This document shows positions 12,527 through 47,010 of a stretch of 64,000 nt of DNA, in pieces. Source of the DNA: Anaerolineaceae bacterium. Its GTDB lineage: Bacteria > Chloroflexota > Anaerolineae > Anaerolineales > Anaerolineaceae. The notes under the pieces are model-generated. The model was not told the DNA's origin. It saw only the letters and a list, made by a program, of their open reading frames with translations, and did no database searches. Numbering within the stretch: the first letter of the stretch is position 1; each line of letters opens with the position of its first letter. The position numbers and the translations under genes were made by a program. The DNA lies in assembly GCA_012839565.1 (NCBI GenBank), contig DUMZ01000008.1, positions 1 through 64,000 on the forward strand, given 5' to 3'.

Positions 12527-13561
12527 TTAAGGTGTGCTGGTTTGACTTGCTTCGGGCGGAAAAGGCATGGCTTCCACGAATATCTCAACATGGTGAATAT
12601 CTCCAGCCAAGGAATACACGGTAATTGAATAGGGCACGTTGGCGAATGTGCTGCTACTCTCAAGGGGTCCATTGCGACGCATTCCCAAAACCGCGCCATT
12701 TTCGTCATAAGCCACCGCGACGATATTCAGAGACATAAAAACGGTGTTTTTGTTTTCAAAACTAATCAAACCTTGCACTCTAGCCGCTTTTTTATTGTAG
12801 AGATAGTCAACTTTTGGTTCGAGTGCTTCGGTTTCCAGGTAACGTGTTTCACCTTCGCCGTAGGGCAGTTGAAAATCAAGTTCGGCAGATACGGTCAGCG
12901 TTTCTCCCCACTCGGGCAAAAAATAACTGGCGGCAGGTAAACTGCTGTGGGGTGGAATAACGTTGATTAAGGTCGTGGCGATGGTTTGGGCCGTTTTGCC
13001 AGTTTCGTCACTTAGCGTTATCAAAAGAGAAACGTTTTCCAACGCTTCATCACTGTCATTTTCAATCAGGCTAAAGCAGTAAACAGCCTTGCTGGCATCA
13101 CGATAACAATAGCTTTTGTAGGTACTAACATGCTCTGGCGCGGGGATTGTTGAGGCAGATACGCCTGGACTTGGCTCATTCTCGTTGTCCACGCCCGGTG
13201 TAGGCGTAATGGGGATGATTAACTCAGTGCCGATGGACATCGCGTTGGGTATAACCTGGGGATTTGCGGTTTTCAGGGCTTCAAGGCTGACCCCAAAATA
13301 AAGCGCGATGCTGAACATATCGTCATTTTTGCCAACTTTGAATGTAATCGGTTCAGGTGTTGCGGTGGGCGAGGGCGAAGGGCTGGGACTGGCGGTATGG
13401 CTGGGACTTGGCAGGAAAGTTGGCGTAGCACTGCGCACAGATGTGGGTGTATGGCTCGGTTCTGGTGGCAGGATAGCAGGGATGTCCGGTTTGGGCCCAC
13501 AGGAACTCAAAAGAAGCATCATAATCAGAAAAAAAGTCTTTAAATAATTACGCATTTTCAT
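12527..13561 (-). CDS. LysM-domain lipoprotein
   Basis: A 344-aa exported protein. The lipobox MLLLSSC at residues 15-21 would be lipid-modified. A Pro/Thr/Ser spacer follows (residues 25-72), then one LysM domain (FKVGKNDDMFSIALYFGVSL ... TELIIPIT, residues 74-118) that binds peptidoglycan or chitin-like glycans. A second linker leads to a beta-rich C-terminal domain of about 180 residues (DNENEPSPG onwards), which I do not recognise by name and which contains segments like SYCYRDASKAVYCFSLIEN. It probably tethers the domain to the wall. A -10 box sits six bases before the ATG. The gene is downstream of the candidate selenoprotein gene but separated from it by a strong terminator. Confidence 0.82.
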   Translation of the reverse strand: MKMRNYLKTFFLIMMLLLSSCGPKPDIPAILPPEPSHTPTSVRSATPTFLPSPSHTASPSPSPSPTATPEPITFKVGKNDDMFSIALYFGVSLEALKTANPQVIPNAMSIGTELIIPITPTPGVDNENEPSPGVSASTIPAPEHVSTYKSYCYRDASKAVYCFSLIENDSDEALENVSLLITLSDETGKTAQTIATTLINVIPPHSSLPAASYFLPEWGETLTVSAELDFQLPYGEGETRYLETEALEPKVDYLYNKKAARVQGLISFENKNTVFMSLNIVAVAYDENGAVLGMRRNGPLESSSTFANVPYSITVYSLAGDIHHVEIFVEAMPFPPEASQTSTP

Positions 13562-13731: not shown

Positions 13732-15135
13732 TTAGTCATTGATATAGACCAGAGGCAAAAACAAATTATAAACGGGTTCCTGCCCACCTTCAGGAATATA
13801 AGTTATTTTTACGGTCACAGTCTTTTCGTGGTAATCTTCGCCATCTCTAACGATGATAGTACCTTCGTTTATGCCAGGAGCAAGTTTAGTTCGGTCAAAA
13901 TTCACTACGAGCGTTCCGGGTACGTTGCCACTGGTAGCACCCAGTACAATCCAATTATGGCTGGCTTCGGCTGTCCAGGTTTGGGGTGTGTCACCACTGA
14001 TGCGTATGCCTGCGGTTGGCCCGGGTGGGTCATCATGGCGGATGGTATAAACAAGCGATACAGGTAAAACTTTAAAATTAGGTGGAGGTGGGATAACAAA
14101 GGTGATGTTCACCAGGCCCGCACGTTGTCGTGTGCTGCCATTTTCAGATACAACAACCATGCCCTTGTTAAGCCCTTCAACCAGTTTGGTTTTATCAAAG
14201 CTTACGGTGATGGTATCGCCGTGAGCACCAGAGGCTGGCTCAATGGTCATCCATTCCACATTTGATTCTGCTGTCCAAGTCTTACCAGCACTCAAATTTA
14301 CAGTGAATTCACCAGTGGGAAGTTCCTGGTCACGCGCGCTGATGGTAAAGTTGTATTCTTCAGGGTCGATGTAGAACGGCAGTGGCGGTGTGACATCGCC
14401 AGGGGTGGCGATTACTGCTTGCGGTTGGTCATACTTTCCAGTGGCTTTTGTATCTACTGTTTTATAGTCAACCAAGACAATATAGTGGGTGTTAGCCCAG
14501 TTGACCACATTTTCCACTTCCATGGTAATGATATAGGTATCTGTAGCTCCATCAGCTAAATAGCTGATGTTTGTTTTGGCAGAGCCTCGTCCGATGCGGC
14601 TCGTCTTTTGAGCTTGATAATCTTCATAAACGATGGCATGCACCGCGGCATTGTTTGCAGCGGAGAGTAATACACCGCTTGAGTTTGTTACCGTTGCTTT
14701 AAAGGTAACAACATTGCCATCACGAGAATAGTTCGCCTGGATGGATGCACCAGCTTGACGCGCCTGTGAACGGTCAACAAGACCAACAATACTGGCATAA
14801 TCGACACCGGTTTGCCATTCATGGGTACTATCAATGAACATTTCGGGAACATATCGACCACCACCGCTTTCTTTTAAAATATTTATACGGTTGGCGGGGT
14901 AATAGGGATCGCCCCACTCAATAAAGGCGACAGGTTGTCCAGCATAAGTTGCTGCAGCTTGATCTACTGCCTGACCGGCAGGTCCACAATAAGGTCAACC
15001 CGCGCTGGAAATAAATTCCAAGACAGAGAATTTAACGGGGTTTTGCGCCTCAACTTGTTGTGGCGATACCATGCCCATCGCACCTAACACGATGGCGAGG
15101 GCTAAGAACACAGATAGTCTTTTAAATAACTTCAT
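13732..15135 (-). CDS. Candidate exported thioredoxin-fold selenoprotein with Omp28-like and BACON-like domains (UGA at codon 47 read as Sec)
   Basis: Reading from the ATG at 15135 (after GGAG at good spacing) gives 467 codons with a single in-frame UGA at 14995-14997. Layout: signal peptide 1-30 (LSVFLALAIVLGAMGMV, cleavage near VEA-Q); thioredoxin-like domain about 33-110, whose first strand (KFSVLEFISSAG) leads into U47-P-Y-C50 and whose VPEMFID matches the cis-Pro strand; a beta domain to about residue 260, as in Omp28-related proteins; two BACON-like repeats (TWTAESNVEWMTIEPASG and TWTAEASHNWIVLGATSG); and the tail NLFLPLVYIND. The reading frame on both sides of UGA is coding-like. A SECIS-like hairpin follows it. 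A predicted product starting at the internal ATG at 14841 would lack the redox motif. A secreted thiol oxidoreductase is the likely role; a nonsense mutation or sequencing error is the alternative. Confidence 0.85.
14967..14981 (-). promoter_or_regulatory. Bacterial SECIS-like hairpin
   Basis: Minus strand: CTGCC (14981-14977), loop GGTCA (14976-14972), GGCAG (14971-14967): a perfect 5-bp stem with GGU in the apical loop, as SelB recognises in known bacterial SECIS elements. The loop GGU begins exactly 18 nt after the UGA, the spacing I recall for E. coli fdhF. Confidence 0.8.
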
Positions 15136-15253
15136 CGGCACTCCTTTTTAAGTTTTGAATGGTTATCTGCTACATTGTATCAGCAAGATGGCAAATAATG
15201 AAAGAGATATCTACATCTTGTTGCTTTTTTGCTTTCCAAACCATAATTTGACG

Positions 15254-46877: not shown

Positions 46878-46888
46878 TCCTTACATAA
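46855..46888. repeat. Perfect 14-bp inverted repeat over the thiamine operon promoter
   Basis: TTATGTAAGGAATG (46855-46868), 6-nt spacer, CATTCCTTACATAA (46875-46888). No T-run follows, so it is not a typical terminator; it overlaps the promoter and is a candidate operator for a second layer of control. Confidence 0.75.
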
Positions 46889-46968
46889 CCCGGGGAGCTC
46901 GCAAGGGCTGAGAGGGACCAAAAGTCCGACCCGTAAACCTGATCCGGATAATGCCGGCGGAGGGATGG
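46888..46968 (+). ncRNA. TPP riboswitch (THI element)
   Basis: The conserved core is present in order: CGGGGAGCTC, GGGCTGAGAGGGACC, AGTCCGACCCGT, AACCTGATCCGG, ATAATGCCGGCGGAGGGA. CTGAGA and ACCTGATCxGGATAATxCxxGCG are signature positions for TPP binding. The 3' strand GGAGGG (46959-46964) can also pair with CCCTCC (46986-46991) in the following terminator, giving an antiterminator when TPP is absent. With TPP bound, the GGAGGG strand is held by the riboswitch and the terminator can form, so the operon is switched off. Confidence 0.95.
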
Positions 46969-46980
46969 AGCAAAAACGTT

Positions 46981-47010
46981 AAACACCCTCCCTGGCGAGG
47001 GTGTTTTGTT
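46981..47010 (+). terminator. Riboswitch-controlled terminator
   Basis: Perfect 10-bp stem AAACACCCTC (46981-46990) / GAGGGTGTTT (46997-47006), loop CCTGGC, ending TGTT just before the ATG at 47011. The GAGGGTG arm may also serve as the ribosome binding site. Confidence 0.85.

Follow-up and report, generated by a model that had tools for sequence, protein, structure and literature searches.

A candidate exported selenoprotein with a thioredoxin-like redox domain and a SECIS hairpin from an Anaerolineaceae bacterium

Analysis of a 64,000-nucleotide stretch of an Anaerolineaceae genome (the whole of it is referred to below as the window) revealed a gene on the minus strand that very probably encodes an exported selenoprotein, with selenocysteine (Sec) inserted at UGA codon 47 through a downstream SECIS element and with a predicted thiol-disulfide role. 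Comparison with relatives strongly supports the recoding of the UGA, the SECIS and the thioredoxin-like class of fold. The frame comprises 467 codons between an ATG at 15135 and a TAA at 13732. Its sole in-frame stop is the TGA at 14997-14995 (codon 47), followed by P-Y-C and by 420 open codons. On the minus strand AAAAAGGAGTGCCG precedes the ATG, with AAAAAGGAG upstream at a normal spacing from it. An earlier note, made from the letters alone, had described the ATG after GGAG, the TGA before P-Y-C, the long downstream coding frame and a signal peptide; the first three could be read directly, and residues 1-31 look signal-like by eye, with a hydrophobic start that is conserved across family members. 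The features are as follows.

15141..15144, minus strand: Shine-Dalgarno-like GGAG, read directly; a similar AAGGAG occurs in relatives
13732..15135, minus strand: candidate selenoprotein gene, 467 residues with Sec47, stop TAA; from sequence and homologues
15043..15135, minus strand: predicted N-terminal signal peptide, residues 1-31, with a basic start, then a hydrophobic stretch and a V-E-A site resembling a cleavage site, by eye
14761..15030, minus strand: predicted thioredoxin-like domain, residues 36-125; AlphaFold2 model, thioredoxin profile match, HBP35 match
14995..14997, minus strand: in-frame TGA read as Sec, residue 47; Sec/Cys column in homologues
14986..14997, minus strand: U-P-Y-C redox motif, residues 47-50, aligning with the CxxC of thioredoxins
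14967..14981, minus strand: bacterial SECIS hairpin CUGCC-GGUCA-GGCAG, 5-bp stem, -8.5 kcal/mol; folding, covariation, codon bias
14458..14754, minus strand: predicted Ig-like beta-sandwich, residues 128-226; AlphaFold2 (pLDDT mostly about 90) and structure match
14143..14319, minus strand: BACON_2 domain (PF19190), residues 273-331; 35.7 bits against a cut-off of 25
13801..14013, minus strand: putative second BACON-like repeat, about residues 375-445, from alignment to homologue L022
13677..13701, minus strand: terminator-like hairpin CAGCCTCGTCA..TGACGGGGCTG followed by TTTT, read directly and unscored

In the proposed mechanism, the hairpin after UGA47 would recruit SelB with Sec-tRNA-Sec, itself made by SelA and SelD; Sec would be inserted at UGA47, and translation would proceed to the TAA. 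The mature protein would then be secreted. Its N-terminal thioredoxin-like domain, bearing a Sec-x-x-Cys redox centre, would be joined to the Ig-like sandwich, and the BACON domain or domains that follow may tether it to a glycan or the cell surface. Outside the cytoplasm it would most likely carry out thiol-disulfide exchange by selenenylsulfide chemistry, and the protein is probably an exported thiol-disulfide oxidoreductase.

An AlphaFold2 model built from 12 sequences (mean pLDDT 70.5, pTM 0.71) places Sec47 between a strand at 37-44 and a helix at 52-63. The thioredoxin part is of moderate confidence (pLDDT about 57-83 in the core), and in it UxxC appears to sit at the start of helix 1 of a beta-alpha-beta core, as in a thioredoxin-like fold. 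The family profile matched thioredoxin 6zom (E 5.8e-5) and the DUF1223 structure 2axo (E 0.0017), the Sec column falling on the first active-site Cys in both. The thioredoxin-like strand proposed earlier thus has a predicted counterpart ahead of Sec47, and Sec stands where it had been placed, at the first Cys of a CxxC motif. BACON is probably present twice, as BACON_2 matches L022 at 381-427. The Ig-like domain, the BACON domains and the paralogue family described below were absent from the earlier note. The best match among solved structures spans the thioredoxin and Ig-like domains: HBP35 (5y1a; Z 12.0, 183 residues, 3.8 A). Other matches reached Z 8.1 or lower, mostly over the Ig-like part. 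The HBP35 match was obtained with VIA-align among Foldseek's candidates; Foldseek alone put mostly Ig-like fragments first.

Proteins often employ Sec where Cys would react too slowly or become over-oxidised, and a selenoprotein with a special role has to be weighed, for example capture of heme or metal, as proposed for HBP35, or the detoxification of organo-element compounds or peroxides. HBP35, the top structural match, combines thioredoxin with hemin-binding activity (PMC2907840). Moreover, two Sec forms of the family carry Ser in place of the resolving Cys (UGIS in L069 of genome G191 and UDNS in L068 of G220), so this Cys is not always needed and the chemistry may vary across the family. 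Yet the window protein and HBP35 share about 14% sequence identity, neither a heme nor a metal ligand was identified, and neighbouring genes vary from genome to genome and gave no pathway clue. We consider such a special role unlikely, and take thiol-disulfide exchange as the working assignment in what follows.

Several observations concern the gene's surroundings. The selenoprotein ends in FLPLVYIND. A short YLPLV or FLPLV motif followed by a brief polar or basic tail recurs among family members, either at the C-terminus or N-terminal to the thioredoxin domain (window 13732-13760, L032, L035, L068, L102, L125, L069, L042, L071 and L072). This has the look of a tail shared across the lineage by exported Anaerolineae proteins, and may serve in sorting or anchoring. 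Next downstream, and on the same strand, the gene at 12527-13561 gave weak matches to LysM and FxLYD domains. Elsewhere in the window, a TPP riboswitch (46881-46982; 62.9 bits, above the Rfam threshold) overlaps the start of an ORF called at 46951.

A search over genome contigs with one protein as the query gave no matches, and an alignment of one paralogue clade, UWHC, used as the query retrieved homologues. A single TGA stands at the Sec codon in 27 further homologues drawn from genus, class and phylum (17-56% identity where measured): 13 belong to the same genus and 14 come from the class or phylum level. Together with the window gene this makes 28 genes with the same TGA codon, from 19 separate genomes. 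Six other genomes of the genus carry the gene with TGA, and in every case this codon, number 46-48, occupies a single alignment column and is the only in-frame stop. The genes of the genus form two paralogue clades, UPYC/UGYC, to which the window gene belongs, and UWHC; members of the two lie in tandem in five genomes of the genus. In the window genome the UWHC paralogue is found on another contig (G000:C19). The same genes occur in the records named Anaerolineaceae UBA4890, UBA5224, UBA5311 and UBA5404, Anaerolineales Chloro_02 and isolate AS06rmzACSIP_362.

At the class level, a profile search of 396 genomes revealed Sec forms in G377, G220, G191, G282, G154, G096 (two) and G127, and Cys forms in G386 (CGFC), G276 (CGFS) and G127 (CIVC); G024 has a further Cys form, CGIC. 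At the phylum level, where 400 genomes were searched, Sec forms were found in G456 (two) and in four complete genomes (1.8-2.1 Mb) of one genus, g269, and a Cys form in G735 (CGNS). The redox column holds Sec or Cys in all 33 genes, the window's included, with Cys in five. Thus, to the question whether homologues would carry random residues at codon 47, the answer is Sec or Cys; the exception, a short homologue outside the 33-gene count (L040, G010:C16:2922-3149), has lost both redox residues and is probably a remnant. On the tree, three changes between Sec and Cys states are needed, and supported branches make at least two of these unavoidable.

These data bear on whether the UGA is a true stop, which would leave a 46-residue exported peptide and a separate downstream gene begun at an internal start, for instance the ATG at 14841. 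A 369-aa ORF starting with ATG is indeed present, and termination would be normal without selenium. The stretch from the UGA to the next ATG is nevertheless conserved and evolves as coding sequence, with dN/dS of 0.16-0.30 in computable pairs (about 0.25 over the 51 codons to the ATG at 14841); purifying selection acts on both sides of the UGA. Cys homologues run uninterrupted through the same point, and the downstream ORF would be left without the signal peptide and half of the thioredoxin fold. We regard termination at codon 47 as very improbable, and the selenoprotein reading is retained for the analysis of the hairpin.

The hairpin begins 13 nt past the TGA. Published constraints for bacterial SECIS elements are a loop of 3-9 nt, a stem of 4-16 bp, G within the first two loop positions, a distance of 16-37 nt from the UGA and MFE <= -7.5 (PMC13188914); the window hairpin, with a 5-nt loop starting GGU, a 5-bp stem, 18 nt from UGA to GGU and -8.5 kcal/mol, lies within all of these. 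It was found at 14981-14967 as described earlier, GGU spacing included; that it says little when taken alone was not recognised in the note. Within a 43-nt piece it is not the minimum-energy structure, and the piece folds no better than shuffles (z -0.72). Moreover, among 39 candidate TGA-interrupted frames in the window, two others form hairpins of equal or greater stability. The hairpin by itself is weak evidence. Only the selenoprotein frame of the three runs on for 420 open codons, and it is this long frame, together with conservation of TGA, loop and stem in relatives, that lifts the case above chance. An Rfam search of the hairpin region returned no family even at E 10, so the SECIS call rests on covariation and the published constraints rather than on a model match.

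Starting at the UGA, the 22 Sec genes of Anaerolineae could be aligned free of gaps. The GGU loop lies 18 nt downstream in 20 of them (the exceptions are GGG in G011_b and AGU in G191), and columns 17-21 and 27-31 show standard pairing in 91.4% of cells. Double-sided changes numbered 16, compared with 4.0 in shuffles (0 of 500 shuffles as high). Related sequences may exceed such shuffles without any structure, so a slide control and the spread over genera weigh more than this count: shifting the partner by 1-3 columns abolished most of the pairing signal. An 8-bp version of the stem gave the same covariation picture. GGT encodes the loop Gly in 20 of 21 genes versus 144 of 536 (27%) other Gly codons of the same genes (p 1.6e-10), and the Ala codon before it is GCC in 14 of 15 (p 1.4e-6), both values taking no account of relatedness among the genes. 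Between closely related gene pairs, synonymous change is reduced directly after the UGA relative to both flanks. L031, the G011_b gene with the GGG loop codon, has an otherwise intact SECIS. G220 has a different stem, GCGCU-GGUGC-AGCGC, with unchanged loop position; in the UWHC clade a mismatch replaces the middle stem pair and the stem is extended below; the G456 and g269 relatives have other hairpins of 6-7 bp with GGC, GGU or GUC triloops at 17-18 nt. The whole set agrees with the published constraints on bacterial SECIS elements. Hence the loss of the hairpin in TGA-keeping relatives, which would have spoken against a SECIS, was not seen: the stem is maintained via compensatory changes.

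The five Cys forms give a mixed picture. Three clearly lack the hairpin, G386 has a stem but no GGU loop, and G735 keeps both. The last hairpin is as good as those of Sec forms and counts against the Sec reading; it may be a remnant, or the hairpin may be partly carried by codon constraint. In the G735 gene (L102, G735:C144:2444-3157; CGNS) the SECIS-like hairpin is complete, GGU included, and the genome encodes both SelA and tRNA-Sec; the gene likely represents a recent Sec-to-Cys change, with codon constraint as the alternative.

A nonsense mutation or sequencing error, which would make the gene a pseudogene or an assembly artefact with a true codon TGC or TGT, has in its favour that TGA is one base away from these codons and that single genomes do carry such errors; given the identical codon in 28 genes of 19 separate genomes, sequencing error is untenable, and purifying selection on both sides and the covarying hairpin likewise make this account scarcely credible.

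The earlier suggestion to look for selA, selB, selC and selD led to all four in the window genome (1.97 Mb, 20 contigs, 96% complete). SelA scored 570.7 bits, SelB 359.8 bits (above the cut-off and nearly the full model length) and SelD 356.2 bits; the tRNA-Sec scored 71.7 bits and was called by ARAGORN as tRNA-SeC with anticodon TCA. SelD is itself a Sec form, with an in-frame TGA in the motif GSAGUASK (L019, G000:C18:4435-5367). All 19 Sec-form genomes have SelA and/or tRNA-Sec. SelA is above the cut-off in 17, the exceptions, G024 and G282, having strong tRNA-Sec (72.3 and 70.0 bits); G154, which is 81% complete, has SelA and no tRNA-Sec above the cut-off. The Cys-only genomes G386 and G276, without a Sec-type hairpin, have neither. 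SelA occurs in most genomes of the genus with or without the selenoprotein gene, so the Sec machinery does not depend on this gene. Codes in which UGA is read as Trp, Gly or Cys, genome-wide or through a suppressor, exist in some bacteria; here we give such a change almost no credence, as TGA terminates 4 of the 43 long ORFs of the window and one paralogue (L033), the Sec machinery is complete, and homologues have Cys at this residue, with no instance of Trp or Gly.

Insertion of Sec at UGA47 being the reading we adopt, it raises the question of how a selenenylsulfide stays reduced outside an anaerobe's cytoplasm. More tentatively, Anaerolineae might keep a dedicated extracellular selenium redox system of paired UPYC and UWHC HBP35-like thioredoxins, tethered through BACON domains to the surface or glycans, with Sec ancestral and Cys forms as secondary losses; we would not yet favour this picture over its alternatives. 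The tandem Sec paralogues, Cys conversions and hairpin-keeping Cys form offer a natural series for studying Sec gain and loss. Since the stop codon separates the start from most of the fold, automatic annotation probably truncates or misses such genes.

We compared the protein with known families. HBP35 of Porphyromonas gingivalis likewise combines a thioredoxin-like domain with a second one alignable to the Ig-like sandwich, and the predicted model, of moderate confidence, suggests that the window protein shares this two-domain arrangement. HBP35 is exported, its thioredoxin activity requiring its two active-site cysteines (PMC2907840), via the Por (type IX) system (PMC3120885); besides the low identity, it differs in having Cys where the window protein has Sec. 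The Omp28-related selenoprotein NF045500 ('hypothetical protein GOS_C') is also thioredoxin-like with Sec in UxxC. Its model is weakly matched by the distant family members in G456 and g269 (18.6-39.9 bits against a 200-bit cut-off, a fifth or less even for these nearest relatives), whereas the window protein, which carries BACON, gave no match at E up to 0.1. DUF1223 (PF06764; 2axo) shares the thioredoxin-like core and type of active site, yet the window protein falls below its gathering score (21.9 versus 30.7 bits). The Rcas_1661/DsbG-like (seleno)lipoprotein NF041057, judging by the model name and Table 1 of PMC13188914, is exported, thioredoxin-like and UxxC-bearing as well, but its model and the window protein do not match. 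In NCBIfam 20.0, the window protein and close relatives gave weak sub-threshold matches, such as glutaredoxin 3 (16.5 versus 90 bits).

A 2026 inventory lists 119 prokaryotic selenoprotein families and subfamilies (PMC13188914, Table 1), and the window architecture is absent from the inspected parts of it. By title and abstract, the open-licence literature searched on Chloroflexi, Anaerolineae and Dehalogenimonas selenoproteins, DUF1223, and Omp28 with selenocysteine leaves the family undescribed, though a description may exist elsewhere; in these searches no described selenoprotein of comparable sort from Anaerolineae was found. The absence from those parts of the inventory, the lack of any NCBIfam match above cut-off and the sub-threshold DUF1223 score together argue for a new selenoprotein family of a known kind, one that would add to the prokaryotic selenoproteome from the mostly uncultured Anaerolineae.
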